A stretch of 20,321 bases of DNA from a virus, in the IMG/VR virus record IMGVR_UViG_3300027844_000093, positions 1-20,321 of that record; one strand, 5' to 3'. Shown in pieces: positions 1 to 20,124 of this stretch. The first letter of the stretch is position 1; each line of letters opens with the position of its first letter. The notes beneath the pieces are model-generated. The model was not told the DNA's origin. It did not search any database and saw only the letters and a program-made list of their open reading frames with translations. The translations under genes and the position numbers were made by a program.

Positions 1-2727
1 TTGATCTTTATAACCATTTAGTCTAAGATCATTATACTGTAAGATATTTTCATTTCTATGATCATTTATTAGAAATTGTCTAAATACATTTTGAGCTTCT
101 TGTATTCTTAAAGCACTTTTTAAAGAAGTTCCTGCAGGCATCATTTCTAAAACTTCTGTAACAGAGTTAAGAAAATCTCTATTTTGAGTTTGAAGCTTAC
201 CTAGTATAACTTTTAATTGTTTTTGTTCTTTAGAAGATAGCTTCTTTAAAAGATATTTGTCAAGTATAGCTCTTGGTTGATTACCAAAAGCATCCATCTT
301 AAGTCCTTGAGACCTAATAAACTCTTCAGTTATCTTTGCTTGTCTACCAAAAGGATCTATTAATCTAGAAGTTGCACCAGGTAATCCACCAGTACCTTCA
401 CCTGATAATGAGCTTCCTCTAAGAATAGGATTAAAAAATCTAGGAACAGCATCTCCAATTACATCCTCTATCCAACTTTCTCCTGAATGTCTAGCACTCT
501 CTGTTTCACGTATTAACTCTGGTCTATACAGGTCTGTAAATGAAGTTTCTTGAGACCATCTAATAACAAAGGAAGTATTTGTAGGACCATACTCATATAG
601 ATTTAAACGTTCTATAGGTATATCACCATTTCTATAAATTTCAAGAGGACTAAGAGAACCATCTCTTCTAGCTATTTCATGAATTTCTAGTCTTTCCCCT
701 GGAAAAAAATCTTGCCAATTATAATGCTCAATAGGTGGAAAAGCTTTTGAACTATTAAGATGCTCCTTGCCTAACCCTTTTTCTATTAAAAGTCTTTCTT
801 TTAAAGCAGTATATGCTGCCATAACTTCCTTAGGATCTATAAAGTCTAAGCTACTAGATTTTTTAAAAGCTACTCCAAAGTCAAAACCATCTCCTACAGG
901 AACTAACTTATTAAAAGAAGAAGCTAATACTAAAGACTGTCCTTCTAATATCTCTTTTGTAGTATCATAAAGATCTTCCAAATATGCTTTTTTTGCAGGA
1001 AAATTAGGATCTGCTGGTTCAAGAAGAAGGAGTCTTTTTTCTTTTAAAGCTTCATTTCTCATTGCTCTAAGATGAGAAAAGTCAAGAGTTTGTCCTACAT
1101 TGCCATGTTTATAAACATTACCCGGAGCATCCATAAACATCAAAGCCATCTGATCAACATTAAAACCAATCTGTTCACCAATAGTAGGCTCTCGTATAAT
1201 AGCCTCTTGAAGTTTAGTACCAGCTTCAGGATTAGTTCTATTAGTTGAAGCAAATGGTGCATCTACTTTTGGATTAGATTGTTCGGGGGCTTCTAATTTT
1301 TGTCTTTCTATGTGGGCTTCTATTTTTTGTTGTTCTGCGATATCAAACAACCTACGATATTCAGTTGCAGCTGCTTCTCCAATATTTTGTCTAATTGCAG
1401 CCTCAGTATCAACTGAGGCTCTGTTAGCATCAGGAGATTTAATATCTTTAGCTACTTTTGCAGCCATTGTAGTTGCCGCTATGCCATCAAACATAACTTC
1501 TGTACTATGTCCATGAATAGTCTTTTTATATTCAGGTCCTCTGCCTTCTGCTTCTTCAAACTCCTTATCTGTAAAAACTTCTTCTTCTTTTAATTTAGCC
1601 TTTATTTTCTCTGTTGTAAATGGTGCATTTGGTTCTATTTCTAGATACTCTGGAGTATTTTTACCAAAGGCGCCTTTAATTTTTCTTTTAGCTGCTCTTA
1701 CTCCTCTAGGAGCAAAGATAAGTATAAGAGACTCAATAATTAAAGAGGTCTTTCCAGGGTCATCTGGAGTACTCTTTTTAGAAACCCACGCTATTGCTTC
1801 AGCTAAGTATTCAAAAGCCTTACCTACTACAGAAAACTTATCTACATCTATACCAACAACCCTTAGGACACTATCAAGTCCTTCTGAAACTTGGTGTGTA
1901 TAAGCAGTTTTTCTATTCTCTTGTACAAGCTCTCTCATTTTAGTAACTGTTTCTTCTTTAGCTGCATTAGCATCACTACCAAAGTCTTTAGTATTTAAAA
2001 TATTAGGGGTATCATAACCAGCAACAGCTGCCCAAGTATCTACTAACTCCCAGAAATAATCAGGAAGATGTACTATCATACTACCTAGAAAAGCTATATC
2101 ATCAATGAGAGGTATATATCCTGGATCTTTCAAGCCTGTCGTAACTCTCTTAATTACTTCAATAGCTTTAGTTTCATCAATATCAGCCCTTGTTAAAACT
2201 TCTTTATTTATAACTTTTTTTTGTTCTGTTGCTATAGTCTCAAATGCCTGTTCCCACTGTAATTGATCTATCTCTTCATCAGCAGATATATAACTATCGT
2301 TTGTATCTAAACCATTATCAATAATATAAGAAGAATTTAAGTTCTTAATATACTTTTCTTTTAATGAACTAGAAGTAGATCTTCTTGTATATTTTAGAAG
2401 CTCTTTCTTTTTCTCACTAATATTAATATCAGGATTTTCAATTACACCAGTTAAATAAAGAGCAGCATCTTCATCTTGTTCCTCTTTCCATTTAGTTTTA
2501 GCTTCTGTAATTAAATCAGAATAACCATAAGTAACTATCTCGTCATTAATAGATTTATAAAGTTCTATAACATCCATTTCTTTTTCAGGAGCAAGTAGCA
2601 TAGAAGCATAGAAATTATTATCCTTATCTTGCGTAGTTGCTCTATCTTCATATAGAGGAGGAGTAAGTCCTAAGTCTGTTACCTGTTTAGAATTATCCAA
2701 AGATGGTTTTCCCGTATTTCTTTGCAT
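1..2727 (-). CDS. Large internal virion (ejection) protein, gp15/gp16-like, 3' end outside the window
   Basis: One uninterrupted reading frame of 909 codons runs from an ATG at 2727 off the left edge, so the C-terminus is missing. The frame is open back to a stop just upstream of another ATG at 2739; starts at 2739, 2727 or 2577 are all possible and none has a strong ribosome site. It overlaps the end of the gp14-like gene by about 35 bases. The product is mostly charged and helical, with one hydrophobic stretch near residues 325-340 (LIIESLILIFAP) followed by a basic patch. I see no lysozyme or transglycosylase motif. The role is inferred from order: nozzle, gp13-like, gp14-like, then a very large protein matches the T7 ejectosome layout, in which these proteins sit inside the head and form the DNA channel through the envelope. 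Family membership is not proven by sequence. Confidence 0.72.
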   Translation of the reverse strand, partial: MQRNTGKPSLDNSKQVTDLGLTPPLYEDRATTQDKDNNFYASMLLAPEKEMDVIELYKSINDEIVTYGYSDLITEAKTKWKEEQDEDAALYLTGVIENPDINISEKKKELLKYTRRSTSSSLKEKYIKNLNSSYIIDNGLDTNDSYISADEEIDQLQWEQAFETIATEQKKVINKEVLTRADIDETKAIEVIKRVTTGLKDPGYIPLIDDIAFLGSMIVHLPDYFWELVDTWAAVAGYDTPNILNTKDFGSDANAAKEETVTKMRELVQENRKTAYTHQVSEGLDSVLRVVGIDVDKFSVVGKAFEYLAEAIAWVSKKSTPDDPGKTSLIIESLILIFAPRGVRAAKRKIKGAFGKNTPEYLEIEPNAPFTTEKIKAKLKEEEVFTDKEFEEAEGRGPEYKKTIHGHSTEVMFDGIAATTMAAKVAKDIKSPDANRASVDTEAAIRQNIGEAAATEYRRLFDIAEQQKIEAHIERQKLEAPEQSNPKVDAPFASTNRTNPEAGTKLQEAIIREPTIGEQIGFNVDQMALMFMDAPGNVYKHGNVGQTLDFSHLRAMRNEALKEKRLLLLEPADPNFPAKKAYLEDLYDTTKEILEGQSLVLASSFNKLVPVGDGFDFGVAFKKSSSLDFIDPKEVMAAYTALKERLLIEKGLGKEHLNSSKAFPPIEHYNWQDFFPGERLEIHEIARRDGSLSPLEIYRNGDIPIERLNLYEYGPTNTSFVIRWSQETSFTDLYRPELIRETESARHSGESWIEDVIGDAVPRFFNPILRGSSLSGEGTGGLPGATSRLIDPFGRQAKITEEFIRSQGLKMDAFGNQPRAILDKYLLKKLSSKEQKQLKVILGKLQTQNRDFLNSVTEVLEMMPAGTSLKSALRIQEAQNVFRQFLINDHRNENILQYNDLRLNGYKDQ

Positions 2728-3361
2728 TATTAAAGGCATTACTTATTTTCGCTGAGTCATCAAACAGTGTTCCTCCTAAAGTTGTAACATTTGTCCACAT
2801 ATCAGATTTACTTTTTACTTGATTTGCTCGAGACATAGAATTTGCAGCAGCAGTATTTAAGTTACTTACTTGATTACCATAATCTTCTGATACTCCAAAA
2901 TTACCTAAGTTTGCAGTCAACTGTGTATTTCCTGATCCTATTGCTCCTACAATAGATGAAGTTCCTCCAGCTCCTAGTCTTGAATTAGCACCAGCTGCCT
3001 CCACATTACCTACCTCTATTCTAGATGCACGTTGCACTTGTAATCTCTGTCTTTTAGCTTGTAGTGCTCTATACCTAGTTGCAACCTCATTAGCTCTATT
3101 TTGTTGGTCTTGAGCTTGTCGCATAAAACCTGATTGAGCAGCTGCGTATTTTCTTTGATTAACTGCCCCTGCTGTTTGCATAACTAATCCACCTAGTTGC
3201 ATGGCAGTTCCAAAACCTCCAAATCCTGATGCTATTCCTGCTATTCCTGTATGTATACTGGCAGTCTGAGCAAACATACCAGCCATTGGTCCATAACCTG
3301 CCATACCAAAACCTGTAGCTGCAAGAGCGATTGGTGCTATTGTTTTAAGTGCTTTACTCAT
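2693..3361 (-). CDS. Internal virion protein, T7 gp14-like
   Basis: The 222-aa product opens with a hydrophobic, Ala/Gly/Met-rich segment (about residues 8-65) and continues with an Arg/Gln-rich helical stretch (about 70-115, with AQDQQNRANEVATRYRALQ) and a Ser/Asn/Gly-rich C-terminal half. This pattern, a membrane-active N-terminus followed by a Q/R-rich helix, is typical of gp14-type ejection proteins of podoviruses, which leave the capsid first and insert in the outer membrane. Size is close to T7 gp14. The start at 3361 has a good ribosome site (GGAGATATAAT before ATG). It begins one base after the stop of the 101-aa gene and its end overlaps the next large gene. Position between the gp13-like and the large internal protein supports the call. 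Confidence 0.78.
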   Translation of the reverse strand: MSKALKTIAPIALAATGFGMAGYGPMAGMFAQTASIHTGIAGIASGFGGFGTAMQLGGLVMQTAGAVNQRKYAAAQSGFMRQAQDQQNRANEVATRYRALQAKRQRLQVQRASRIEVGNVEAAGANSRLGAGGTSSIVGAIGSGNTQLTANLGNFGVSEDYGNQVSNLNTAAANSMSRANQVKSKSDMWTNVTTLGGTLFDDSAKISNAFNNAKKYGKTIFG

Positions 3362-3362
3362 A

Positions 3363-3668
3363 TTATATCTCCAGTACTGTTAAATAATTTAATAATCCAT
3401 CTTCAGTTAATATAATTCCATTTGGTACTGCTTTAGCTCCAAATACTATATTAAACTTCCTTTCTTTTTTTGATTCACATAATCCATAAACTCTTTTAAT
3501 TCCTCTATCTCTTAACTTTTGTTTAGCTATTTCTAAACCCTTTTTATATCTTTTAAATTTATTATGACTCCATGAAAGACATTCTATATGCATTGTCCAT
3601 TCATTTATTTCTTTATTAAAATCTACACCTATAAAACCATTATCACCTTCTTCGTACAATATGTCCAT
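3363..3668 (-). CDS. Small GNAT-like protein, possible T7 gp13-like internal virion protein
   Basis: The 101-aa product has the look of a compact acetyltransferase-type (GNAT) fold: a helix with KGLEIAKQKLRDRGIKRVYG leading to a beta strand, then a stretch like the end of the acetyl-CoA region (NIVFGAKAVPNGIILTEDG). It is shorter than a complete acetyltransferase and I do not see the classic R/Q-x-x-G-x-G/A loop, so catalysis is doubtful. T7-like phages carry a small protein of this type (gp13) just before gp14, needed for head assembly or maturation, and this gene sits in exactly that place. The ribosome site before the ATG at 3668 is weak; it starts 4 bases after the nozzle gene ends, so translation is probably coupled. 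A plain hypothetical protein is the alternative. Confidence 0.55.
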   Translation of the reverse strand: MDILYEEGDNGFIGVDFNKEINEWTMHIECLSWSHNKFKRYKKGLEIAKQKLRDRGIKRVYGLCESKKERKFNIVFGAKAVPNGIILTEDGLLNYLTVLEI

Positions 3669-3672
3669 AGAC

Positions 3673-5928
3673 TTACTGAGTTGATAACATAGTGACTGGA
3701 TGTCCCCACCCTAGCAATCTCATATCCTTTCCGGTCTCAGATTTAATATATAAACTCAAGCATTTACCTGAACCTCTAAGTTTATTTTTAGTTACTACCA
3801 TAGTATCTCCACTATCCCAAGTAGCACTTACTCCAGTAGGAGTATAATTTCTTAATAATCTATAAGCTTGAAACTCTGGTCCCCATTGACCATTTGCTGC
3901 TGAGTCTGCCCAATTCCATTGAGCTTGTACTTTACATGATGATTGATTGTTAAATATAAAACTAGTACCAGCAGCACTAAATCCATCTTCAGTTTGTTGT
4001 AAATACATAAATAAATAAGGTATTTGTTTCTCTCTCATTATATCACCAAATAATTCGTACCCTGTAACTAAGTAACTTAAGTATGTAACTCCTGTTGCAT
4101 CAGCAGTTTTCCAATCCATAAAATCACTACCATTATATTTAGATAATGTAAATGATGTTCCTCTAATAGTTAATAAACTAAACTGTGCACTTCTATTAAC
4201 TGGTATATCATCATCAACAACAACACCTGTTCCTGCTGTAACTATAACACTATCTGTTCCTGCTACAACTGTTTCCTCAGTAATTGATATAGAGTATCCT
4301 GGAACATTCACATAATCTGCTATATATGGTGAAGCACTTGCTAAATCTGATATTGTATTCTTATACCAAGCTTGTAATGTTAAATCAAATATTAATTCTT
4401 TAGTATATCTATTAATATAGTTTGTTTCTGAGTAACTAGCCTCATCATTATATAAAAATCTTACTGTATTTTCTCTTTCATCATAAAAACCCTTAGCATT
4501 ATTCTTACCTAATTCAGGTATACTTAAATATAATGTCTGAATAGACTTTAAAGATAAAGATTCTGAAGTAAAACGACCATTAACAGCATCTGGTTTAAGA
4601 GTATATATACCAGCTCGTGACCAGTATATAAAATTACCATTTACATTTACTACTGCATTAGGATTAAATACACCATTAGTAGAAATCTTACTTGCCTGGA
4701 AAGATGTAGCAATAAAGCCACCAGTATCTCCATAAATTTCCCATATACCATTTTCTGCAAAAACTAATATCGAGGCTTGGGAAGCTACAATTTTAACTAT
4801 CTTAGTGATATCAGGTATCTGTATAGAGCCGCCATCAGTAGCAATTAAATCATTAATTCCTGGATCTGTAGGGTCAGCCTCTTGATGACATATTCCTAAG
4901 TCATCATTATTTCTAATAACCCTAGAGAAGAATACATATCCTGAATAATTAGGGCTTCTACTATCTCCTCCTGATACATGTGATTCTATACCAGAATAAA
5001 ATACACGTTGTGCATAGGATGTTACAGTAGATATGTTACCTTGTTCAGAATCACTAGGTAATCCTGTAGTAACATCAGACTTAGCCATTCTAGAGTTACC
5101 CCTATTAAAGGCATCAATAATAAAGGAACCTTTAGCTATCTGATAATTAGATTGAGAATTCTTAACTAATGTTTCTGGATCATACTTTTCATAATCAGTA
5201 TCAGATGGATTAGATACTTTACCTAATGTCCAACTGTCAGAGTTACTTGGATACTCTCCTGTTTCATTAAAATGATAATCTAATGCATCTGGATATGATG
5301 CATCACCAGTAACAATTTTTTCATTCCATCCTTGGTTTCTTAAATTATATTTATGTCCATCTGATAAAGTAGTAGGTCTATTATCAATAGCTAAACCATC
5401 ATGTACACCATAAATATCTCTAATATTAAGAGTAATTGTACTTTGAGAAACATTACCAGAAGATTTATCATATGTTAAGAGTACTGGATTATCTAAGTCT
5501 TTACTTACTATAATACAACTATTATTAATAATAGAAACTTCTATATCACTATTACTTAAACCAGCTACAGTAATAGCAGCACCACTATTTTTTAAATTAC
5601 CTGAAGGATTAGAAGCAAGCATATTCATAAACCAAAGTTTATTATATACACGCACAATTCCTAATGATACAGTAGTATCTCCTGCTGGAGATTCCCATAT
5701 ATGAAAAGATTGTTTACCTTCTGCTATTTGAGCAGTAGTTAGACCAGTAGCTGTTAAGGCATAACCAGTTTCATAATCAACACCTAAACGTCTGTACCTT
5801 GAACCATCACGGTTAAGTACAAAGTTAGCTTCATCTACAGAGGCATTCTCTGGAAATGTTAATTGATTAGCTTCAGTTACTAGACCCTTAACAAAGGACC
5901 TAAAAGCCTTTTCGCCCTTTTGAGCCAT
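3673..5928 (-). CDS. Tail tubular protein B / nozzle-like tail protein
   Basis: The 751-aa product begins MAQKGEKAFRSFVKGLVTEANQL and soon reaches NFVLNRDGSRYRRLGVDYE, the pattern of podovirus nozzle or stabilisation proteins in which an N-terminal segment states 'origin' and 'colour' of the virion beta-propeller. The middle is beta-rich, with motifs such as ASILVFAENGIWEIYGD (near 380-400) and FIYWSRAGIYTLKPD (near 430-450), repeated propeller-like strands that are common in this family. No transmembrane segment is visible. In T7-like tails this protein (gp12) forms a hexamer below the adaptor ring and closes the DNA channel. Start at 5928 has a strong ribosome site (GAGGAGATTTA) and shares a base with the stop of the previous gene (TAATG). 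It is followed by the ejection protein genes, as in T7. Confidence 0.8.
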   Translation of the reverse strand: MAQKGEKAFRSFVKGLVTEANQLTFPENASVDEANFVLNRDGSRYRRLGVDYETGYALTATGLTTAQIAEGKQSFHIWESPAGDTTVSLGIVRVYNKLWFMNMLASNPSGNLKNSGAAITVAGLSNSDIEVSIINNSCIIVSKDLDNPVLLTYDKSSGNVSQSTITLNIRDIYGVHDGLAIDNRPTTLSDGHKYNLRNQGWNEKIVTGDASYPDALDYHFNETGEYPSNSDSWTLGKVSNPSDTDYEKYDPETLVKNSQSNYQIAKGSFIIDAFNRGNSRMAKSDVTTGLPSDSEQGNISTVTSYAQRVFYSGIESHVSGGDSRSPNYSGYVFFSRVIRNNDDLGICHQEADPTDPGINDLIATDGGSIQIPDITKIVKIVASQASILVFAENGIWEIYGDTGGFIATSFQASKISTNGVFNPNAVVNVNGNFIYWSRAGIYTLKPDAVNGRFTSESLSLKSIQTLYLSIPELGKNNAKGFYDERENTVRFLYNDEASYSETNYINRYTKELIFDLTLQAWYKNTISDLASASPYIADYVNVPGYSISITEETVVAGTDSVIVTAGTGVVVDDDIPVNRSAQFSLLTIRGTSFTLSKYNGSDFMDWKTADATGVTYLSYLVTGYELFGDIMREKQIPYLFMYLQQTEDGFSAAGTSFIFNNQSSCKVQAQWNWADSAANGQWGPEFQAYRLLRNYTPTGVSATWDSGDTMVVTKNKLRGSGKCLSLYIKSETGKDMRLLGWGHPVTMLSTQ

Positions 5929-6209
5929 TAAATCTCCTCAGATTTTTTAGCTTGTTTAGCGTAATATTTTTCTTTAGGTGTTAATTTTGCTTTAGCTGCA
6001 GCTTTAGCTGTGGCTTCTTTCTGCTCACTAATATATTTAAGTACTACAGTATCTACAGTATTTAAAGATGTAAACAATCCATTTAATTCTGCAGGTAATT
6101 GTCCACCATCACTCCATTGTAATTCATAGTGTGATGTTCCTGGTTTAATATAGGTTTGTATTTCTTTTACACCTTTTGTTTTATAACTTCTTATAACTTC
6201 TTGTGCCAT
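5928..6209 (-). CDS. Small structural-region protein, Ala/Lys-rich C-terminus
   Basis: The 93-aa product is not a family I can name. Residues 1-60 look like a small beta/alpha domain (SYKTKGVKEIQTYIKPG, HYELQWSDGGQLPAEL), and residues 60-93 form a highly charged Ala/Lys/Glu helix (EQKEATAKAAAKAKLTPKEK). No signal peptide or membrane segment is seen. Start at 6209 has a clear ribosome site (AAGGATATTAAC before ATG). It lies between the lysine-rich cluster and the nozzle gene, with which it shares a TAATG junction, so it is probably co-translated with the nozzle and may be a virion or tail-assembly protein. That role is only inferred from position. Confidence 0.7.
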   Translation of the reverse strand: MAQEVIRSYKTKGVKEIQTYIKPGTSHYELQWSDGGQLPAELNGLFTSLNTVDTVVLKYISEQKEATAKAAAKAKLTPKEKYYAKQAKKSEEI

Positions 6210-6224
6210 GTTAATATCCTTGTT

Positions 6225-6428
6225 TTATATGGAGTAGTCTTTTACTCGATTTTGTTTCATTGGTTTTAATATTACTGTTTTACTACTTCCATCTGAATAA
6301 TGCAATTTAAAACCTTTTTTCTTTACAGTTTTAGTTTTTGGTTTTGGATTTATATCTCCAGCTAATCCAGCAATAAGAAACCTAGGTTTTCCCAATTTAG
6401 TATTTGATTCCCATAGAAGCTCTAGCAT
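6225..6428 (-). CDS. Small basic protein of unknown function
   Basis: A 67-aa basic product (pI clearly high from composition) with a central lysine cluster (PKPKTKTVKKKGFKLHYSDG) and a short hydrophobic segment near residues 16-24 (RFLIAGLAG). Its start at 6428 lies inside the end of the upstream 216-aa gene, an overlap of 32 bases in another frame, and has only a weak ribosome site, so the exact start is uncertain. It ends 15 bases before the 93-aa gene. The motif LHYSDGSSKTV resembles the QWSDGG stretch of that neighbour, but I cannot say whether the two are related. Function unknown. Confidence 0.6.
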   Translation of the reverse strand: MLELLWESNTKLGKPRFLIAGLAGDINPKPKTKTVKKKGFKLHYSDGSSKTVILKPMKQNRVKDYSI

Positions 6429-7047
6429 TTCTCATTTGATTACGTCCTTGTGCTCTTTTTTTCTTCTTCTTTGTATCTGCTTGTACAGCCTTTTTATAGT
6501 TAGGTTTTGGTGAAGTTGATTCGCTATTACCAATATTACCTTGATTCGCATTACCATACATAGATGGAGTTACTGGAGCTTTATCTTTAACTGCTCTTTG
6601 TCCCGGAACTTCCTGACCTGAAGGTCTATTAAGTTTACTTCGTCCAAACATAGACCCTGTCATATCTGTAGGTTTAAATACAGAAGCACCCTTCTTTAAA
6701 TTAGCTGGTACTTTACTTTTAGAAGTATTATCTAAAGCTTTTTTCATTGAAAGATTTAATGCTTTTTGCATGCCACCAGTATTATTACCTGGAGCTTCAG
6801 TCATACCAGTTTTACCACCATACCCATTATTTTTAGAATTATTTGTAGTTTTAATAGTTTTCTTACTCTTATTATCTTTCTTACTATCTGTTTTTTCTAT
6901 TTCATTCCAGATTTTATTAACTTTTTTATCAAATACTACTTTCTTGGTCTTGTTATTCCTTTCTTGTGCTTTCTTTTTTTTATCCTTTCGCCATTGCTTT
7001 GTTTTTTCTACTTCTTTATCCCACCACGGTCCAAAAAAATTTCCCAT
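6397..7047 (-). CDS. Lysine-rich, disordered structural-region protein
   Basis: The 216-aa product is dominated by Lys, Asn, Ser and Thr, with no hydrophobic core visible. It begins MGNFFGPWWDKEVEKTKQW, then a lysine/glutamate-rich stretch (about 15-75), a Gly/Asn-rich linker near 75-95, and a basic tail with TKKKKKRAQGRNQMRNARA near 193-212. Such composition suggests a long flexible protein that binds nucleic acid or packs within the capsid. No enzyme motif is present. Start at 7047 shares a base with the stop of the 57-aa gene (TAATG) and is preceded by a GAGGGAGAGG ribosome site. It sits between adaptor and nozzle genes, a place where podoviruses often keep small virion proteins. A role as virion-internal or assembly protein is a guess. 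Confidence 0.72.
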   Translation of the reverse strand: MGNFFGPWWDKEVEKTKQWRKDKKKKAQERNNKTKKVVFDKKVNKIWNEIEKTDSKKDNKSKKTIKTTNNSKNNGYGGKTGMTEAPGNNTGGMQKALNLSMKKALDNTSKSKVPANLKKGASVFKPTDMTGSMFGRSKLNRPSGQEVPGQRAVKDKAPVTPSMYGNANQGNIGNSESTSPKPNYKKAVQADTKKKKKRAQGRNQMRNARASMGIKY

Positions 7048-7220
7048 TACCCTCTCCCTCTTAAAGTTTTATTAAATGAACCCTTAACACGTTTCCATGT
7101 CATAGGATCCTTTGTTTTTTTATTCAAAGTACTTACATACACACCTCTTTTAAGTTTCTTTTTTTTAGGTGCTCCATATACATCACCTTTAATGAAGGGC
7201 TTAGTATTCCAAGTTTCCAT
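7047..7220 (-). CDS. Very small basic protein (57 aa)
   Basis: A short frame of 57 codons plus stop, starting METWNTKPFIKGDVYG and ending KTLRGRG. About a third of its residues are Lys or Arg, including PKKKKLKRG near residues 18-26. The start ATG at 7220 shares one base with the stop of the head-tail adaptor gene, and its own stop shares one base with the ATG of the 216-aa gene; both junctions read TAATG. This perfect fit between two genes is the strongest sign that it is real. It has no motif I recognise. With its neighbours it forms a cluster of lysine-rich small proteins that may bind DNA or the tail channel. Confidence 0.72.
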   Translation of the reverse strand: METWNTKPFIKGDVYGAPKKKKLKRGVYVSTLNKKTKDPMTWKRVKGSFNKTLRGRG

Positions 7221-7996
7221 TAGTAGTTAGGTGTCTTTTTGTTAGCTACATTCCTACCATAGTTAGGATATGTAATTCCATTCTTAATTCTGAAAGCTTC
7301 TTCAGACATTATACGTCTTTGTCTAAGAGATGTTTGTTCAGCTTTCTGGTTAGCCATTTGTTTTAAAGTTAAAAAGGCTGCAGACTTAGCTTCAGATAAA
7401 AGATATGTAAACATCTGTACTGGTAAATCAGGAGTAAAAGTATCTCCTATAGTAAAGACTATAGAACGTTTACCATGACATTGTGTTTTACTTTGTTGTA
7501 GAGTACTATCTAATGTTGCTAGATAAGAATCAAATACCATAGTTACATCATCAAATGAAGTAAAGTATTGAGGTTGCTTATCATTTAAAACATTAATAAA
7601 TATTCCAGTAGTGTCAGTTACCTTCTTAACCTTAGTAGCTGTACTATCTCTCTCATCACATAACTTCATAAAATCTTCGGGAGTTTTATATTCAATAATT
7701 TGATATAGATCTCTAGCTGATGCTGTTAATTTATTATTATATTTAATATATTTTAAATCTATAATATCATCTGGTAAAAGCATATGAGTAGGTCTATCTG
7801 AAGTACCACTTGCTGTCATTCTAAATAACTCATATAAGAAATCATAATCTTTACCATCAATAATACTATAGTAAGTAGACTTAACAATCTGTGCTACTTG
7901 TAAAGCCTCTACACTATCATTAATAGAATTGACATTATCAGAATCCATGTCTGACATAATGTCTTGTACAATTTCTAATAAATTCATTTTAGCCAT
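7220..7996 (-). CDS. Head-tail adaptor / tail tubular protein A-like
   Basis: The 258-aa product starts MAKMNLLEIVQDIMSDMDSD and has the helical N-terminus (VNSINDSVEALQVAQIVKST, residues about 22-42) followed by YSIIDGKDYDFLYELFRM, a pattern of podovirus adaptor proteins that form a ring under the portal (T7 gp11-type). A strand-rich middle (LLPDDIIDLKYIKYNNK; ITDTTGIFINVL-like segments) and a C-terminal helix rich in Gln/Arg (about 210-245, QMANQKAEQTSLRQRRIMSE) follow. Start at 7996 has a TAGGATAAATT ribosome site. Gene order supports the role: portal, scaffold, capsid, decoration, this gene, then nozzle. A second, different adaptor is encoded at 18120-18746. Confidence 0.78.
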   Translation of the reverse strand: MAKMNLLEIVQDIMSDMDSDNVNSINDSVEALQVAQIVKSTYYSIIDGKDYDFLYELFRMTASGTSDRPTHMLLPDDIIDLKYIKYNNKLTASARDLYQIIEYKTPEDFMKLCDERDSTATKVKKVTDTTGIFINVLNDKQPQYFTSFDDVTMVFDSYLATLDSTLQQSKTQCHGKRSIVFTIGDTFTPDLPVQMFTYLLSEAKSAAFLTLKQMANQKAEQTSLRQRRIMSEEAFRIKNGITYPNYGRNVANKKTPNY

Positions 7997-8004
7997 AATT
8001 TATC

Positions 8005-8574
8005 CTAGGTTGCTGTTAGAGTTAATGCTAGTTTAGTAACTGTCATATCTCCAGCACCTGTTGTATTATCTGCATATACTTCGAAGTAATCATTTGTTGC
8101 TGCTGAGACTAAGCAAGAACCAACTATATGAGTTGCATCTGCTGTAACTACATCTGCATAAGATTCAGAACCTGCTATAACAGTTCCATTCTTATGTACA
8201 GCTATTAATACTGGAACATCAGAACCTACAGCATGTTGAACTGTAATATCAAAATCAAGTTTTACTACGGCTGTAAGAGTTCCAGTATATGTTAATCGTG
8301 CAGTAGTTGCTTCTGTTACTAAGCTTCCTAAACCAGAAGCTATTGTTGTTGGTGCTACTATAGTAGGTGAAGCATTCCATGTATGTGTATATGGAGAACC
8401 TACATTATAAAAATAAAATTTTCCTTTTGGTAAAGCCATCGTGCTTGTAGTCAGTGTTGACCAAGCTCCTGATGCTGAACCATTTGCCACATAAACTTTA
8501 TTGGCAGCAGCTGCCGCTGCCCCTTTGGGCTCATGCAAGTCAGTGCCAGTAATAGTATTATGTTGTATTGTCAT
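8005..8574 (-). CDS. Virion decoration or head-fibre protein, beta-sandwich type
   Basis: The 189-aa product begins MTIQHNTITGTDLHEPKGAA and soon has NKVYVANGSASGAW. The 'HEPKGA...VYVADG..SG.W' type opening is a recurrent N-terminal module in phage virion proteins, where it probably attaches an outer domain to the particle. Residues 60-189 are alternating Thr/Val/Ala-rich strands (LVTEATTARLTYTGTLTAVV, VPVLIAVHKNGTVIAGS), suggesting a jelly-roll like C1q/TNF-type heads. No enzyme motif is visible. Start at 8574 has an AAGGAAATAAC ribosome site. It lies downstream of the hairpin at 8597-8618, so it may be made at a lower level than the capsid protein. Tail-fibre tip is a possible alternative. 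Confidence 0.62.
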   Translation of the reverse strand: MTIQHNTITGTDLHEPKGAAAAAANKVYVANGSASGAWSTLTTSTMALPKGKFYFYNVGSPYTHTWNASPTIVAPTTIASGLGSLVTEATTARLTYTGTLTAVVKLDFDITVQHAVGSDVPVLIAVHKNGTVIAGSESYADVVTADATHIVGSCLVSAATNDYFEVYADNTTGAGDMTVTKLALTLTAT

Positions 8575-8596
8575 GTTATTTCCTTGTTAAATTAGG

Positions 8597-8618
8597 GGTA
8601 AGCCCCGAAGGGCTTACC
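8597..8618 (-). terminator. Hairpin with UUCG loop after the capsid 2 / decoration genes
   Basis: On the minus strand the 9-base arms GGTAAGCCC and GGGCTTACC are perfectly complementary around a TTCG tetraloop, the very stable C(UUCG)G type. It lies 18 bases past the stop of the 158-aa gene. The following bases (CCTAATTTAAC) are not a proper U tract, so it may be a leaky terminator or an RNA-end stabiliser that lowers expression of the genes downstream. Confidence 0.75.
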
Positions 8619-8635
8619 GAGATATTACATACTAC

Positions 8636-9112
8636 TTAGTTGTATTGATATTTTACAACTAATTCAAATCTACCTGCTGTTAAAGCTACAGACATTGCTA
8701 CGACTACTTCACATGCTGCTGTACCAATAGTTTTACCTATTAGTGCACCTGCACCTGCTGTACGAGTACCTTTTGTAGTAACTGCAGTATTATCAAGTTG
8801 TGCAGCTGCTGCAAGTCCATCTGGATCAACAGAAACACCGGCAGTAGTAGTTAAACCTACTGTCATTGCTGTAGATGATCCAGCGGCTCCTGCTGTTAAA
8901 ACACGCAGATGAGCACTTAGAACTGTGCAATTAGCTGGAAGTACCTGTTCTAAATTACTTGCAGTATATGTAGGTAACTTATCCCAGTCAAATGTCCAAC
9001 TTGCTTCTTTTACTTTACCAACTGAGTTGTCCTGACCGCCATATTGGTTGTCAGTTCCTCGGACGCCATAATGGTTGGCTACGCCTCTTTTACTTCCTAT
9101 TTCATATCCCAT
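8636..9112 (-). CDS. Capsid decoration-like protein
   Basis: The 158-aa product starts MGYEIGSKRGVANHYGVRG and contains a region rich in Ala, Thr, Val and Gly (about 60-140) that predicts small beta strands; it ends in a typical strand (GRFELVVKYQYN). There is one unpaired-looking cysteine near residue 62 and one near 135. The gene follows the second major capsid gene by 9 bases, with a strong ribosome site (CTAGGAGATTATA before ATG). A small beta-rich protein made in large amounts with the capsid protein is most simply a head decoration (cement) protein, but I know no firm family for it. It ends just before the hairpin at 8597-8618, so it shares the capsid protein transcript. Confidence 0.68.
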   Translation of the reverse strand: MGYEIGSKRGVANHYGVRGTDNQYGGQDNSVGKVKEASWTFDWDKLPTYTASNLEQVLPANCTVLSAHLRVLTAGAAGSSTAMTVGLTTTAGVSVDPDGLAAAAQLDNTAVTTKGTRTAGAGALIGKTIGTAACEVVVAMSVALTAGRFELVVKYQYN

Positions 9113-9121
9113 TATAATCTC

Positions 9122-10117
9122 CTAGTAAGCAGATGGGCTTGTTAAAAGCACACCTAAAGTATCAACTCGTTGAGCTCCTAAGCCGAATCGAGAAGTAACT
9201 TGATACTTGTCACCCCTTTCTTCTTCAGCTCTCCAGCCTTCAGTCATTGGTGCACGTCTCCATGCATGCATGATTGGTTTACATGAATCATCTGCTACGC
9301 ACATGAACACGTTTGCTTTATCACCAATAGCTGCTGTTTCAGATGTAAGTCCATATGCAACAGCATTTAGTGCTTCAGTAGCAGTTATTGCTGGTAGGAA
9401 GTTAGATGTATAAACATCCCATCCCATAATGTTTCTCACAAACTTATGATCTCTTGCGAAACCTTCATTTAGAACACCCACAAATTGTGGAGTATTATCA
9501 ACGACTGTTGTTGCAGAAATCAATGTGTTAAGTGTAGCCTCTACGATAGGGTCAACGATTGCAATTCTGCCACCTGCTGGTGCGTTTGCTTTATCGAAAG
9601 ACAATTTCATAGCTACAAAATCAGCTAATGTAGTTGTACGTGCATTAGCTGCTGCAGATCCTACCCAACGGTGAGGTCTTGCATTCACTAAGTTAAGTCC
9701 ATCTGCGCCACCAGTTTTATCCTGGGCAGCATCTGCTACGGCTAAGAATCGTGATTCATGGTTTTCACCAAGAGCACGTGTTGATTCCATAGCTCGCATA
9801 GCCATTAATGTATCTACCTGTGAACCATCTTCACGTAGGTCATCAGATACTTTCCAAGCATCACCGATATAATCAGTAATAGCTAGGGTAATAGTACCTG
9901 TGTCTATGTTAGTAAAGTTCAGAGGCACATCCTCTGCTGCATCTTGAAGTGTTACAGTACCAACTGTTTTAATGTTTAGTGTTGTACCTGAACCGAAGTC
10001 TGTTACATCACGCCACATCCCTTCTGGAAGAAGGTAGTCGTGTAAGTTATCAAGAATAAACTGAGAATATTGCTGCGCTTCAATGAACGCAGTGGTATTA
10101 CTTGTCAGTTGTGCCAT
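9122..10117 (-). CDS. Major capsid protein 2 (HK97-fold, T7-like head module)
   Basis: The 331-aa product starts MAQLTSNTTAFIEAQQYSQF, has an N-terminal helix and then strands with FGSGTTLNIKTVGTVTLQDA (about 42-62), a long 'spine' helix near 100-125 (VDTLMAMRAMESTRALGENH), and a strand-rich C-terminal half (KVFMC-like strand, RRAPMTEGWRAEEERGDKYQ, LGAQRVDTLGVLL). This order of E-loop, spine helix, A-domain strands matches HK97-fold capsid proteins. It sits directly after a scaffold gene and before a decoration gene. Start at 10117 has TTAGGAGACTAAAAA before the ATG; the stop is TAG. It does not resemble the capsid gene at 19123-20112. GC content looks higher and codon use more even than in its neighbours, as often in highly expressed phage genes. 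Confidence 0.88.
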   Translation of the reverse strand: MAQLTSNTTAFIEAQQYSQFILDNLHDYLLPEGMWRDVTDFGSGTTLNIKTVGTVTLQDAAEDVPLNFTNIDTGTITLAITDYIGDAWKVSDDLREDGSQVDTLMAMRAMESTRALGENHESRFLAVADAAQDKTGGADGLNLVNARPHRWVGSAAANARTTTLADFVAMKLSFDKANAPAGGRIAIVDPIVEATLNTLISATTVVDNTPQFVGVLNEGFARDHKFVRNIMGWDVYTSNFLPAITATEALNAVAYGLTSETAAIGDKANVFMCVADDSCKPIMHAWRRAPMTEGWRAEEERGDKYQVTSRFGLGAQRVDTLGVLLTSPSAY

Positions 10118-10128
10118 TTTTTAGTCTC

Positions 10129-10845
10129 CTAAGACTGTTGTTTTATTTTCTCGCCTGCTCGTCCCCACGCTCTCAATAAGTCCTTAGTTGAACCACCCTC
10201 TACTTTAGCTGACAAAGCTTCAGGAGCTGCGGTATTACTAAGAGCTTCTGTATTAACATCACTTGAAGAATTACCTACAGGTGGTATAGTAGCAGTTAAA
10301 CCTGCTGCTTTTAATACAAGAGTTGGCGAAGTTGCTGCAAGCTCATTTAGTTTTGTAACGGTAACATTTAGTTCTTTAGCTATAGAGTTATATGTAGCTT
10401 CAGCTTTATCTCCATACTGAGCAGTAAACTTTGCAGCTACTGCTTTAGCATTGGAATCTGCTTGAGCTTTATTTTCTCTAATAGATAAAGTTTTATTAAC
10501 TAAATCCATTACGTTATCTTGATTAATCTCAGCACCTTGAGTGGTATTCTCTATTGGCTGTGATCCAGACTTAAGTTCATCTATAAGTTCCTGAGTAGTT
10601 TGTCTCTTAGTCAGTTCTTCTTTTACTTCAGCAAGTTCAGACTCGAGAGTCTCAATATGCTTTTGTGCATGAGGTACTGATCTTAGAGCATCTTCTGGGC
10701 TCTGGTACTTTTTACCTTCACCAACTAATTCTTGAGCTTCGGTCGGAATCTCGAATGTTTTTGGTGGAGTATCTGTTTGTACAGCCTCAGTTGTATTTGG
10801 CTCTACAGGTGTTTCAGTTGTTTCTGTTTTTACTTCATCTTCCAT
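10129..10845 (-). CDS. Capsid scaffolding protein (module 2)
   Basis: The 238-aa product starts MEDEVKTETTETPVEPNTTE. The frame is open 10 codons further upstream (ATG at 10875), but the ATG at 10845 has a textbook ribosome site (AAGGAGATAAG) and is chosen here. The N-terminus is acidic and disordered (1-45), followed by a motif KKYQSPEDALRSVPHAQKHI near 50-70, a strong coiled coil (LESELAEVKEELTKR, about 72-90), and a helical C-terminal part with a basic end (RAWGRAGEKIKQQS). Acidic, helical, directly before the capsid gene: this is the typical scaffold that guides capsid shell assembly and then leaves. The ALxSxPHAQKHI motif is common in scaffolds of podoviruses. Confidence 0.85.
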   Translation of the reverse strand: MEDEVKTETTETPVEPNTTEAVQTDTPPKTFEIPTEAQELVGEGKKYQSPEDALRSVPHAQKHIETLESELAEVKEELTKRQTTQELIDELKSGSQPIENTTQGAEINQDNVMDLVNKTLSIRENKAQADSNAKAVAAKFTAQYGDKAEATYNSIAKELNVTVTKLNELAATSPTLVLKAAGLTATIPPVGNSSSDVNTEALSNTAAPEALSAKVEGGSTKDLLRAWGRAGEKIKQQS

Positions 10846-14875: not shown

Positions 14876-15247
14876 TTATTTCTCCTTAAAATTAGTTATT
14901 GCTGCTTTAATTGCATCTTCTGCTAAAACACTACAATGTATTTTTACTGGCGGTAAAGCTAGTTCTTCTACAATGTCTGTATTTTTTATATCCTGTGCTT
15001 CTGTTAATGTCTTACCTTTTAATAATTCTGTAACTAAACTACTTGATGCAATTGCTGAACCACATCCATAGGTTTTAAATTTCGCATCTGTTATAACATC
15101 ATTATCTACTTTAATTTGTAGTTTCATAACATCACCACAAGCAGGAGCACCTACCATTCCAGTTCCAACATTAGAGTCAGACTTATCAAAAGAACCTACA
15201 TTTCTTGGGTTCTCATAATGGTCTAATACTTTTTGACTATAAGACAT
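14876..15247 (-). CDS. iscU: Iron-sulfur cluster assembly scaffold, IscU-type
   Basis: The 123-aa product matches bacterial IscU along its whole length. Cluster ligands are all present: C37 (GAPACGDV), D39, C62 (YGCGSAIASSS), H104 and C105 (KIHCSVLAEDAIKAA). The LPPVK loop (98-102) that binds the HscA chaperone is intact, and the N-terminus (YSQKVLDHYENPRNVGSF) is close to that of Escherichia coli IscU as I remember it; only a few C-terminal residues are missing. In cells IscU builds [2Fe-2S] on sulfur from IscS and hands it on with HscA/HscB. None of those partners is encoded here, so the phage protein must use host ones. It shares a TAATG with the erpA-like gene and is followed within 2 bases by a phage gene. 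Function in infection is unknown. Confidence 0.96.
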   Translation of the reverse strand: MSYSQKVLDHYENPRNVGSFDKSDSNVGTGMVGAPACGDVMKLQIKVDNDVITDAKFKTYGCGSAIASSSLVTELLKGKTLTEAQDIKNTDIVEELALPPVKIHCSVLAEDAIKAAITNFKEK

Positions 15248-15567
15248 TAGACTGCGAAACTACTTCCACAACCACAAGATGCTTTAGCACTAGGGTTATG
15301 TATTTGAAATTGAGAGCCTTGTAATGACTCTTTATAATCTATTTCTGCTTCTTGTAAATACTGTAAACTCATTGGGTCTACTAATATTGTACAATTATCT
15401 TTCTCAACTTTTGTATCATCTTCATTTATCTTTTCATCAAATGTAAAACCATATTGCATACCAGAGCATCCACCACCTTCAACATAAACTCTTAAATTAA
15501 TATTAGGGTTATTTTCTTCAGCTATTAAATCTTTTATTTTAATAACTGCATTATCAGTAAGTGTCAT
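15247..15567 (-). CDS. erpA: Iron-sulfur cluster carrier, ErpA-type (A-type carrier)
   Basis: The 106-aa product is an HesB/IscA/SufA-family A-type carrier. Its three cluster cysteines are present: C34 in [13 protein letters not shown], and C98 and C100 in [12 protein letters not shown]. The VDPMSLQYL stretch (63-71) and the exact C-terminal pattern NP.AK..CGCGSSF are those of ErpA rather than IscA. ErpA receives clusters from IscU or SufBCD and passes them to target enzymes, including those of isoprenoid synthesis and respiration. Length is normal. Start at 15567 and stop at 15247 both sit in TAATG overlaps, with the 120-aa gene and the iscU-like gene. So the pair is built into the phage operon and not a loose insertion. 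Confidence 0.95.
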
Positions 15568-16751: not shown

Positions 16752-17707
16752 TAAGCGTATCCTGTTCCTGCTTGATTAGCATACCAATTAGTACCATCTG
16801 ATACGAATACATAAATATCAATACCTGAACCTAGAGTTGGAGCTGAACCACCATTCCATTTAATAGTACCTGACCAAGTAATACTTGTAGCAGTTGCGTG
16901 AACGATAGTAAATGATTTACCTGAAGTAGCTGCTGGCATTGTAATTGTCATTGTTCCAGAGCAAGAATATAATGTACCATCATCACTTAAATTAGGTGTA
17001 AACGATATAGATTTGGTTGTCTTGGTTTCAGTAATTGCCTCTAAAGTAACATTTCCTGTAAGAGTTCCTCCAGCTAATGGTAGTTTAGTTGAGTCAGCGG
17101 GTAAGTTAGTTAAAGCAGAACCATCTATTGCTGGTAATGCACCAGTAAGTTTAGAAGATGACATACCAGCTATTTTTCCATCTGTTACATTAGCGTCTAA
17201 TATTTTAGCAGTGATTACTGCATCATTTGCGATGGTTAGAGATGTTGCTCCTGTTACATCACCTGTATGTGTAGCATTGGTTACTTTCGCTGTGTTAGCA
17301 GTTATTTCTGTATTGATTGAGTTAGCAAGTTTGTCAGTAGTTACATTATCATCTACAATATTTGCTGTAGCCACTACATCAGCATCATTAATAACAGTTC
17401 CATTTAAAGTAACTGCTTTTTCAGCAGGATAAGTACAAAATACATCACTTGTCCCTGCTAAAGTAATTTTTGAACCAGAGTTACTAGACTCTAGGACTGT
17501 ATCTCTGGATAAAGTTGTGCCTGATAAAGTATAAGTGCCTAAACCTACTTCCCAGTTATCACCACTAACAATAGAGTAATAAGTAGTGTTTGCATTACCA
17601 ATAACAGAAAATGCTTGAAAGCCAGCTTCTGCTCCTGCTAATACAACTGTAATTGTACCAGTCGTGGTAGTTGTTTCTTTGACTCTATCTTTAAATACAA
17701 GTGCCAT
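16751..17707 (-). CDS. Tail fibre protein with virion-attachment N-terminus
   Basis: The 318-aa product starts MALVFKDRVKETTTTTGTIT and has GFQAFSVIGNANTTYYSIVS (29-48), YTLSGTTLSRDTVLESSNSG (58-77) and the segment VFCTYPAEKAV. This N-terminal module (about 100 aa) recurs in marine phage structural proteins and likely attaches the fibre. The middle is a repetitive Thr/Ala/Asp-rich stretch (105-195, with IVDDNVTTDKLANSIN and ANDAVITAKILDANVTDGKI), typical of a trimeric fibre shaft, then KLPLAGGTLTGNVTL (about 206-220), a common fibre motif, and a beta-rich C-terminal domain ending WYANQAGTGYA. Start at 17707 has a GAGGATTAATC ribosome site. It overlaps the glycine-rich gene by TAATG, so shaft and tip are made together. 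Confidence 0.82.
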   Translation of the reverse strand: MALVFKDRVKETTTTTGTITVVLAGAEAGFQAFSVIGNANTTYYSIVSGDNWEVGLGTYTLSGTTLSRDTVLESSNSGSKITLAGTSDVFCTYPAEKAVTLNGTVINDADVVATANIVDDNVTTDKLANSINTEITANTAKVTNATHTGDVTGATSLTIANDAVITAKILDANVTDGKIAGMSSSKLTGALPAIDGSALTNLPADSTKLPLAGGTLTGNVTLEAITETKTTKSISFTPNLSDDGTLYSCSGTMTITMPAATSGKSFTIVHATATSITWSGTIKWNGGSAPTLGSGIDIYVFVSDGTNWYANQAGTGYA

Positions 17708-17717
17708 GATTAATCCT

Positions 17718-18113
17718 CTATGCTAATGTTACTGTTAAATTGCCTGTTGTGATTTTAAATACATCACCAGAGTCAATAGTTTTGGTTGCATCTAGTGCTG
17801 TATGGTATAACATATTGCCACTTGAAGCTGCATCCCAAAGACCAATCCAACCTACTGTTCCCCATCCTGCTGTTGCAGTTGGAAAGGTTGCGTCTGCGTC
17901 TGAAGCTACAGAACCTGATGTACCAGAAGCAACTGCAAAAGAAGATGCAGTTCTAGCGTAAGAACCACCAGACACTTCTGTTCCTGTTCCAGCATCTGTA
18001 GGGTTTGCTGTGTGTAAAGAAATGTAAGGGTTATTCATACCTGCCCATGATGGTGTTCCGTTAAGACTTAAATTTAAAAGTGTGACTTCTAGGAAGTCTG
18101 ACATATCTGCCAT
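17718..18113 (-). CDS. Phage tail-fibre-type protein (Gp80-like), small virion protein
   Basis: The 131-aa product begins MADMSDFLEVTLLNLSLNGT and has YISLHTANPTDAGTGTEVSG (29-48) followed by GSYARTASSF. The pattern 'LHTADPG..G.EVSGG.YAR..V.F' marks a family found in many phages and usually labelled as tail-fibre or minor virion protein; the exact family name is from memory. The rest is beta-rich (VGWIGLWDAASSGNMLYHTA, DVFKITTGNLTVTLA). It is a single domain with no signal or membrane segment. Start at 18113 has a GAGGTAAATTATT ribosome site. It lies 6 bases after the adaptor gene and 10 before the fibre gene, linking head completion and fibre genes. Confidence 0.75.
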   Translation of the reverse strand: MADMSDFLEVTLLNLSLNGTPSWAGMNNPYISLHTANPTDAGTGTEVSGGSYARTASSFAVASGTSGSVASDADATFPTATAGWGTVGWIGLWDAASSGNMLYHTALDATKTIDSGDVFKITTGNLTVTLA

Positions 18114-18119
18114 AATAAT

Positions 18120-18746
18120 TTACCTCGTAGTTGTGGTTATAGACATTGGATGAGCAGGAAATTCCCCCTCATCATCTGATTTAGTTAAAGCATTAACACC
18201 TCTGTCATACATTGCTGACCAAGTTGCTAATCTCTCATCATTCATCAAGAATGGCTCTGCTTCACCAAGTGCTGCATAAAGCAGTAAATCAGGTGTGTTT
18301 GCTAACCAAAGGTTTGATGAAACTGTTGAACTCATATATGTAGGCTTGTAATAATAAAGCATTTGCAATGTATAAGCTGTGTCTGGTATTGGAGCAAATC
18401 TAAACTCTTGTCCTAATGCTGTATAAAATACAGGTAGTCCAGATGCTGTTGCTCTTGTGTTTCTAAAAAAGTTACTTGGAGATTGAAAAGTAACTGTTTG
18501 AATTGGGTCAGTAGAAGATATATGCAAATCTTTCATTGCTAAAAAGTCTGCTGGTATTTCTACTGTGCCATCTGCGGAAGTTGTAGTTGTAGTAACTATT
18601 TTAAGCATTGGTCTAATTCGCAAATCTCTAGCCAATCTATCTTCTGCTAATCTAATAAATTCAGGGATAGTAGCTGTCAAATCATCTCTAGCTAAATAAT
18701 TTGCTATGGTAGCCTGTAGCGTTGTATAGTCTGTAAAAAATGCCAT
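18120..18746 (-). CDS. Head-tail adaptor, SU10 type
   Basis: The 208-aa product starts MAFFTDYTTLQATIANYLAR and continues DDLTATIPEFIRLAEDRLAR (21-40), then DLRIRPMLKIVTTTTTSADG and EIPADFLAMKDLHI. These segments are typical of the adaptor proteins of SU10-like phages and of many siphoviruses, in which a helical bundle docks under the portal. Its presence with a DUF5309 capsid is the usual combination. Start at 18746 has an AGGAAGAATATAA ribosome site and follows directly on the stop of the 104-aa gene. A second adaptor of another type lies at 7220-7996, so two head-tail adaptors are present in the window. Confidence 0.8.
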   Translation of the reverse strand: MAFFTDYTTLQATIANYLARDDLTATIPEFIRLAEDRLARDLRIRPMLKIVTTTTTSADGTVEIPADFLAMKDLHISSTDPIQTVTFQSPSNFFRNTRATASGLPVFYTALGQEFRFAPIPDTAYTLQMLYYYKPTYMSSTVSSNLWLANTPDLLLYAALGEAEPFLMNDERLATWSAMYDRGVNALTKSDDEGEFPAHPMSITTTTR

Positions 18747-19061
18747 TTATATTCTTCCTGGTTTTGTTCTAAAAAATCTGTTGTCTGGGTGGTTTAAGAA
18801 AGCTTTAAATCTTTTCATATCTAGTATATGATGTCCACGACAAATACCATCTTGGGTTAATTTATCCCATACTGTATTGGGTAGAGCAGCTATTTTATTA
18901 CCAAATACATCTCCATCACCCCAAGTTGTTGAGGCATTATTAAATTCTTGTTTGTTCTGTTCTACAATATCTGATACATCTTGTATTGTTTCTATTACAT
19001 ACTTACCATCTCCAACATTATGTCTTTTTTGATGTCGGTATGATATTGGTTTTTTGTTCAT
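18747..19061 (-). CDS. Conserved small protein between capsid 1 and adaptor
   Basis: The 104-aa product starts MNKKPISYRHQKRHNVGDGK, is hydrophilic, and ends ILDMKRFKAFLNHPDNRFFR followed by TKPGRI. I recall similar proteins placed right after DUF5309-type capsid genes in marine phages, but none with a proven role. There are two notable parts: a basic N-terminus (HQKRHNVGDGKYVIETIQDV) and a Trp/Asp segment (ASTTWGDGDVFGNKIAALPN). A single Cys and a RGHHILD motif near residues 74-82 are present, but not enough to claim metal binding. The start at 19061 has a TAGGATAATT ribosome site just after the terminator at 19080-19097. Function unknown. Confidence 0.72.
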   Translation of the reverse strand: MNKKPISYRHQKRHNVGDGKYVIETIQDVSDIVEQNKQEFNNASTTWGDGDVFGNKIAALPNTVWDKLTQDGICRGHHILDMKRFKAFLNHPDNRFFRTKPGRI

Positions 19062-19074
19062 AATTATCCTAAAA

Positions 19075-19097
19075 AGATAAGCCCACCGAAGTGGGCT
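19075..19097 (-). terminator. Intrinsic terminator after major capsid protein 1
   Basis: On the minus strand AGCCCAC and GTGGGCT pair perfectly around a TTCG tetraloop (stem 19097-19091 with 19086-19080), followed at once by TATCTTTTT, a proper U tract. It lies 25 bases past the capsid stop, in a 61-base gap. It should end most transcripts from the capsid gene and lower expression of the 104-aa gene and those after it. Confidence 0.85.
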
Positions 19098-19122
19098 ATA
19101 TCAATATCTAAATTAAATTAGA

Positions 19123-20112: not shown

Positions 20113-20124
20113 TGTTATTTCTCC

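Follow-up and report, generated by a model that had tools for sequence, protein, structure and literature searches.

The window, positions 1 to 20,321 of the virus record IMGVR_UViG_3300027844_000093 (20,321 bases), encodes a block of four small proteins of 57, 216, 67, and 93 amino acids (aa) between a tail adaptor gene and a tail nozzle gene. These four proteins are not of one kind; three are basic and mostly predicted to be disordered, and the fourth, the 93-aa protein, is small, nearly neutral, and predicted to be folded. The best explanation for the block, which we put forward tentatively and by analogy, is that the lysine-rich products would be channel proteins resembling gp7.3 of phage T7 and that the 93-aa protein would be a nozzle-coupled factor; a gp7.3-like role is the best supported because the block has a similar architecture and sits at the corresponding gene border. 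Our literature searches turned up no paper on lysine-rich phage tail tubular proteins and none titled as a tail structure of Zobellviridae; within their reach, the lysine-rich set is a variant of small accessory proteins of the channel or of ejection that has not been described before.

Organization and lysine content of the block

The initial annotation had placed four open reading frames (ORFs) between the adaptor and the nozzle, and all four were recovered there on the minus strand:

7220 to 7996, minus strand: adaptor of 258 aa, tail tubular A-like, bounding the block upstream; matches phrog_7592 "tail protein" (E 5e-83) and is syntenic with MEP402 gp40, "putative adaptor protein"
7047 to 7220, minus strand: 57-aa protein, predicted disordered, with the N-terminal anchor NTKPFIKGDVYG and a lysine-rich tail; directly follows the adaptor, its start overlapping the adaptor stop (TAATG)
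6397 to 7047, minus strand: 216-aa protein, predicted by AlphaFold to have a long basic N-terminal helix (residues 7 to 61) and then a disordered lysine-rich region
6225 to 6428, minus strand: 67-aa basic protein with the C terminus KQNRVKDYSI; overlaps the 216-aa gene, and a later TTG start is possible
5928 to 6209, minus strand: 93-aa protein of the phrog_9082/RIO-1 gp45/ICP2 gp10 family, directly upstream of the nozzle (TAATG)
3673 to 5928, minus strand: nozzle (tail tubular B-like/tail appendage), 751 aa, downstream border of the block; matches phrog_8094 "tail appendage" (E 3e-191)

TAATG is common to the adaptor/57-aa, 57-aa/216-aa, and 93-aa/nozzle junctions, and the 216-aa and 67-aa genes overlap by 32 nucleotides (nt), but the 67-aa and 93-aa genes lie 15 nt apart, so the linkage by TAATG or overlapping ends that had been proposed for the whole block holds at every junction except this one. 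By eye, the nozzle and the 216- and 93-aa genes are each preceded by a purine-rich ribosome-binding site. A frameshift fusion of the 57-aa ORF to the adaptor was considered and dropped because, on inspection by eye, the shifted frame hits a stop immediately. The block is not an assembly artifact, since an independent contig (L002) carries window bases 47 to 10711 at 99.8% identity.

Lysine makes up 22.8% of the 57-aa protein, 19.9% of the 216-aa protein, 19.4% of the 67-aa protein, and 15.1% of the 93-aa protein, against 5.6% in the 22 other genes of the window. The adaptor and nozzle are not lysine-rich, and only one of the 22, a 56-aa ORF at 20125 to 20295 (21.4%), equals the block; its alignment to positions 292 to 340 of 342 of phrog_3927 (E 4e-4), a head scaffolding family, makes it probably the final part of a scaffold gene lying at the edge of the window. 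To allow for an A+T content of 65% (35% G+C), we shuffled each ORF's own bases 2,000 times and scored the lysine fraction. The observed content was reached in 0.15% of shuffles for both the 57-aa and 216-aa ORFs, in 1.6% for the 67-aa ORF, and in 29% for the 93-aa ORF; three of the four are thus lysine-rich beyond base composition and the 93-aa protein is not, which narrows the earlier description of all four as rich in lysine. Lysine runs of three to five residues in three products stood as described (KKKK in the 57-aa protein, KKKK and KKKKK in the 216-aa protein, and KKK in the 67-aa protein), with none in the 93-aa protein. By charge and charge-hydropathy, the 57-, 216-, and 67-aa proteins are basic and mostly predicted to be disordered, in keeping with the basic, flexible character first suggested for the block, from which the 93-aa protein departs in not being basic. 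Searches with these three found nothing in Pfam above the curated cutoff and only weak matches of unknown function in PHROGs (E 0.17 and 0.23). The suggestion of histone-like core proteins found no backing, as no DNA-binding or core family in Pfam or PHROGs was matched, nor did the claim that the proteins are abundant, which cannot be read from sequence.

Conservation of the block in related phages

The initial annotation had named a lack of conservation in relatives as part of what would count against its reading; the block is conserved. The window nozzle is 74% identical to that of the Methylophilales phages MEP402 and MEP401, both Zobellviridae records from a common host, Methylophilales bacterium FZCC0133. 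Gene order between adaptor and nozzle is alike in these phages and the window: MEP401 gp37 and MEP402 gp39 are of the 57-aa type, MEP402 gp38 stands in the place of the 216-aa protein, and MEP401 gp36 and MEP402 gp37 are of the 93-aa type, with no 67-aa gene annotated in either. We compared 57 distinct adaptor-nozzle gaps, comprising 31 found through the nozzle, 16 found by small proteins, and 10 from named phage records, with near-identical gaps counted separately; the 31 remained from 42 nozzle-found loci once three without an adaptor match (L009, L012, and L033) and eight exact duplicates were left out. Lysine-rich ORFs other than the 93-aa family are present in 46 of the 57 gaps.

The 57-aa type occurs in 46 of the 57 gaps (29 of the 31 nozzle-retrieved ones) and in all 46 immediately follows the adaptor, starting no more than 17 nt ahead of, or 33 nt beyond, the point where the adaptor match ends. 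An alignment of 25 sequences gives the N-terminal motif NTKAFIxxxQYG, in which F, Y, and G are invariant. The ratio of nonsynonymous to synonymous substitution rates (dN/dS) is 0.11 to 0.45 among three pairs with differing proteins, and the MEP401 and MEP402 copies have synonymous differences only; by these sequence comparisons, the 57-aa type is under purifying selection. It was not found in PA11, SIO1, RIO-1, ICP2, CW02, HP1, GX1, Manatee Spring phage MW202697, or the metagenomic loci L041, L043, and L102. With the 57-aa or 93-aa protein as query, we retrieved 56 loci (confirmed relatives only, from 27 of 144, 14 of 28, and 15 of 48 pattern matches). They are not independent: several contigs were recovered twice, by different queries, and many of the loci were also nozzle-found. 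The match is adjoined by the adaptor in 55 of them and by the nozzle in 52, and in the five exceptions the contig ends there.

The constrained ends in the window are the N terminus of the 57-aa protein and the C terminus of the 67-aa protein. In relatives, the peptide KPKKQGY closes an ORF in 25 of the 57 gaps and in 14 of the 31 nozzle-found ones, the latter being the fairer figure because the scan that yielded many KPKKQGY gaps used a query bearing that end. Its carrier is the 57-aa type in 20 of the 25, which also include L081 and L082; elsewhere it ends a different 67-aa protein (L013 and L021) or a separate 26-aa peptide (L020), and the 57-aa type there is without it. None of 471 mechanically called ORFs outside the gap ends in KPKKQGY. 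A looser end motif closes 21 of 155 ORFs in the gap and 7 of 284 and 3 of 187 outside, although these counts are not like for like, given an ORF floor of 20 aa inside the gap and 60 aa outside, and three of the 21 (27-aa ORFs in L008 to L010) look spurious.

The gap also holds peptide ORFs of 21 to 26 aa that are 43 to 46% lysine and end in GRGY or KKQGY (L003, 5664 to 5729; L105, 4697 to 4762; L020, 5487 to 5567), the L003 and L105 peptides being 21 aa long and 43% lysine, with the GRGY end. Other lysine-rich families stand beside the 57-aa type at L017 5601 to 5738 (phrog_2423, E 4e-22) and L027 3150 to 3347 (phrog_15706, E 1e-5); a match of the L027 protein to Fusello_VP2_Capsid was rejected, at 17.8 bits against a Pfam cutoff of 27. 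From these sequences, the site behaves as if it accepted basic peptides of several origins.

The 216-aa and 67-aa proteins

The AlphaFold model of the 216-aa protein has a mean predicted local distance difference test score (pLDDT) of 55.9, with 133 of 216 residues below 50; past residue 61, most of the protein is under that value. The structure prediction that had been proposed as a check thus bears out flexibility for most of this protein; its N-terminal helix is of a kind, the lone charged helix, that is often overpredicted. The 216-aa type is fast evolving (dN/dS 0.55 to 0.64, a rough figure since the alignments are poor), and its C-terminal end is variable. Counterparts in L105, L003, L004, L006, and L010 are related to the window protein (0 of 500 shuffles each reached the observed score), those in L013 and L022 are only weakly similar (69 and 9 of 500), and those in MEP402, L011, and L016 show no detectable similarity (157, 280, and 252 of 500), the likeness to MEP402 gp38 being one of place and composition only.

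The 67-aa ORF is rare but, judged by its sequence, real. A 66-aa homolog in L105 has the same last ten residues and shares the lysine-rich segment upstream of them (0 of 500 shuffles), and the L002 copy carries an in-frame two-residue indel. We saw this type only in the window, L002, and L105, and two further scans returned only the L105 and L002 contigs themselves.

The 93-aa protein

The initial annotation grouped the 93-aa protein with the other three and recognized no family for any of them; by sequence, however, it is an already known core gene of the Zobellviridae, so neither the grouping nor, for this protein, the lack of a family can be kept. The phrog_9082 hidden Markov model matches the window protein at E 0.0017 and all 27 of 27 aligned members, the best at 1.2e-10. 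Pairwise, none of 500 shuffles reached the score against RIO-1 gp45 or ICP2 gp10, and PA11 gp39 resembles the window protein weakly (18 of 500). The genes for RIO-1 gp45, ICP2 gp10, CW02 gp44, and HP1 gp19 all lie between adaptor and nozzle, and the RIO-1 record itself points out the similarity and common position of gp45 and ICP2 gp10. A regular expression recovered the 93-aa type directly upstream of the nozzle in 54 of the 57 gaps; of the three missed, PA11 gp39 and GX1 ORF13 are by eye divergent or overlapping copies, and L043 gives a weak tblastn match (E 5e-4). Its dN/dS is 0.12 to 0.57 and its net charge +4 (listed members, -2 to +6). The window protein differs from its relatives in PA11, CW02, ICP2, RIO-1, and HP1, which are 62 to 72 aa long, in a longer, mixed-charge C-terminal tail.

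The AlphaFold model, at a mean pLDDT of 71.7 and with every residue below 90, is a beta-beta-beta-alpha fold that carries a loose tail. A Foldseek search of BFVD gave probabilities of 1.00 to proteins of Lentibacter phage ICBM3, RIO-1, CRP-5, and CVT22 and of 0.98 to ICP2_2011_A, with a best E of 0.0012, none below 0.001, and TM-scores by query length of 0.42 to 0.55. Against the PDB, both the 93-aa profile (best E 0.48) and Foldseek (best E 1.7) returned chance matches only, and a sequence search for solved phage relatives of the window nozzle and adaptor returned none; with no solved relative from these searches, there is no template by which to position the small proteins within a tail. The simplest reading of position and conservation is that the 93-aa protein is most likely an assembly or stability partner of the nozzle. 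The nozzle is split into two "tail appendage" genes with others between them in RIO-1 (L049, 5159 to 9290) and HP1 (L054, 3159 to 5855).

Genomic context of the window

Gene families around the block are those of a Zobellviridae-type podovirus, and the minus-strand order of terminase, portal, scaffold, capsid, two small genes, adaptor, small block, nozzle, and further genes is the same in MEP402. The window has two unrelated major capsid genes, one MEP402-like (9122 to 10117) and one matching SU10_MCP (19123 to 20112, E 2e-92). Its similarity is MEP402-like up to 14466 and resembles Venkman, another Methylophilales phage, from about 15549, with 74.8% for 17412 to 20321 against Venkman. Where the two phage types switch, at 14876 to 15567, lie two adjacent genes that by eye resemble those for IscU-like and IscA-like iron-sulfur proteins. 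The similarity switch and the two unrelated capsid genes suggest, at the level of sequence, that the window is a chimeric contig or a true recombinant, by which the small block is unaffected. The second of these capsid genes, at 19123 to 20112, was found in none of 22 searched relatives, a set that included no positive control and of which 19 were virus records, many of them fragments.

Candidate roles of the block

Under a gp7.3-like explanation, the block would be an accessory module of the tail channel, inserted between adaptor and nozzle, with its lysine-rich peptides present in the virion. A conserved end peptide would dock on the adaptor or nozzle at the junction, the lysine-rich body would lie in the channel and hold the leading DNA end, and the peptides may help the nozzle seat on the adaptor and, at infection, exit before the DNA; a separate role at the nozzle, across the Zobellviridae, would fall to the 93-aa protein. 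Lining of the ejection channel, one of the functions first proposed for the block, has a precise precedent in T7 gp7.3, a 99-aa protein present in six copies at the adaptor-nozzle junction, where its C-terminal loop docks on two nozzle subunits (PMC11784390). The same source describes a mostly positively charged N-terminal part, contact of K84 and K85 with the DNA end, and a virion protein proposed to help the nozzle assemble into the adaptor (PMC11784390).

Several observations weigh against this explanation. No lysine-rich gene is present in 11 of the 57 gaps, including those of PA11, SIO1, RIO-1, ICP2, CW02, HP1, and GX1, and the window's own 57-, 216-, and 67-aa proteins lack the KPKKQGY end. 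MEP401 is without the 216-aa type, having no annotated gene between gp37 and gp36 although its host is that of MEP402, and since no similarity to MEP402 gp38 can be detected in the 216-aa protein, part of this "family" is a matter of position and composition only. The charge-hydropathy plot gives no clean separation: the 93-aa protein falls narrowly in the disordered region and T7 gp7.3, by a small margin, in the folded one. The T7 gene for gp7.3 is placed elsewhere, upstream of portal rather than between adaptor and nozzle. PF11653, which T7 gp7.3 itself matches at E 2.8e-61, is matched neither by any of the four window proteins nor by MEP402 gp38 or gp39 or the L003 216-aa type, and shuffles reached the scores against gp7.3 and gp6.7 in 45 and 32 of 500 cases for the 216-aa protein, 206 and 67 for the 67-aa protein, and 393 and 294 for the 57-aa protein. 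In the literature, we found no virion proteome for any phage with this block; one reported virion proteome of Pseudoalteromonas phages covers the genus of HP1 (PMC5498523), and HP1 has the 93-aa type and lacks the lysine-rich block.

Among other accounts, an unlikely but credible one is that the proteins are nonvirion assembly factors, chaperones translated with the adaptor and nozzle that help assembly and are then lost. Start/stop overlaps at both borders favor this, as does the linkage of each border gene to its small neighbor, adaptor to 57-aa and nozzle to 93-aa; the case is strongest for the 93-aa protein. Extreme lysine content and disorder are, however, unusual for chaperones. The nearest functional precedent, T7 gp7.3, is moreover found in the virion (PMC11784390). 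Head-internal core or ejection proteins, either like T7 gp6.7 or acting as histone-like DNA neutralizers, that are packaged and ejected with the genome are an unlikely alternative; basic, mostly disordered proteins, one with a predicted long basic helix, would suit it, as would the description of gp6.7 in PMC11784390 as a small, only partly resolved core protein. The genes lie between adaptor and nozzle, however, whereas the internal virion protein genes of RIO-1 and ICP2 are downstream of the nozzle, and no Pfam or PHROG core or nucleoid family was matched.

We think it quite improbable that these are late nucleic-acid-binding or host-directed accessory proteins occupying a permissive spot in a structural operon. 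The gap does vary from 172 to 1289 nt, unrelated lysine-rich families stand beside the 57-aa type in single genomes (the phrog_15706-like protein of L027 and phrog_2423 in L017), and MEP401 dispenses with the 216-aa type, but the 57-aa gene keeps its first place after the adaptor under purifying selection, and conserved end peptides suggest docking to a common partner. Mere A+T drift in dispensable or spurious ORFs is disfavored as very improbable: the window's 35% G+C and the dN/dS of the 216-aa type are what such drift would offer, against which stand three ORFs with more lysine than base shuffling gives, dN/dS values of less than 1 in the 57-, 93-, and 216-aa types, the frame-keeping indel and shared C terminus of the 67-aa protein, and a nozzle and adaptor that are not lysine-rich.

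A more novel proposal, which we consider doubtful, is that this lineage would line or plug the adaptor-nozzle channel with modular, evolvable lysine-rich peptides. Their interchangeable disordered bodies (down to 21 to 26 aa in relatives) would carry a small number of common end tags, among them KPKKQGY, GRGY, and KQNRVKDYSI; these tags would move from ORF to ORF and attach at shared docking sites. If true, the charge lining of the DNA channel could be retuned without altering the ring proteins. Whether the lysine-rich block encodes channel proteins is made testable by MEP401 and MEP402, which share one host and differ by one of its genes.

Comparison with T7 gp7.3 and gp6.7

By sequence, the window proteins are not members of the gp7.3 family (PF11653, VirionAssem_T7; phrog_1320). 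The conserved C-terminal nozzle-binding sequence of gp7.3 (GGKKSLSVARSSGGGINI type) is not seen in the window proteins, where the best score falls within the shuffles (45/500), and a resemblance of the 216-aa C terminus to that of gp7.3 was dropped as homology on 45 of 500 shuffles. With gp6.7 (PF17570), a virion protein, the block has in common small size, partial disorder, and a basic C terminus; there is no similarity between them, and gp6.7 is a head core protein with another gene position.

The likeness to gp7.3 is one of architecture. In six annotated gp7.3-type proteins and one unannotated MmP1 frame, drawn without exception from T7-like relatives, the C terminus is conserved and the body varies; gp7.3 itself is small and lysine-rich. 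A lysine-rich body with a short conserved terminus recurs in the 57-aa protein (N-terminal), in the 67-aa protein (C-terminal, in two lineages), and in the KPKKQGY-ended proteins of relatives. The window differs in having several such peptides where T7 has the single gp7.3, and in that the conserved anchor of the 57-aa protein is N-terminal whereas that of gp7.3 is C-terminal. Counterparts of gp7.3 and gp6.7 may escape recognition by sequence, as the Peru-2 study reports for Peru-2 and ICP3 (PMC13320782). T7 gp7.3 sits at the adaptor-nozzle junction, and the window block is encoded at exactly that border; a position-fixed lysine-rich block with constrained ends provides concrete candidates for channel proteins in Methylophilales phages.

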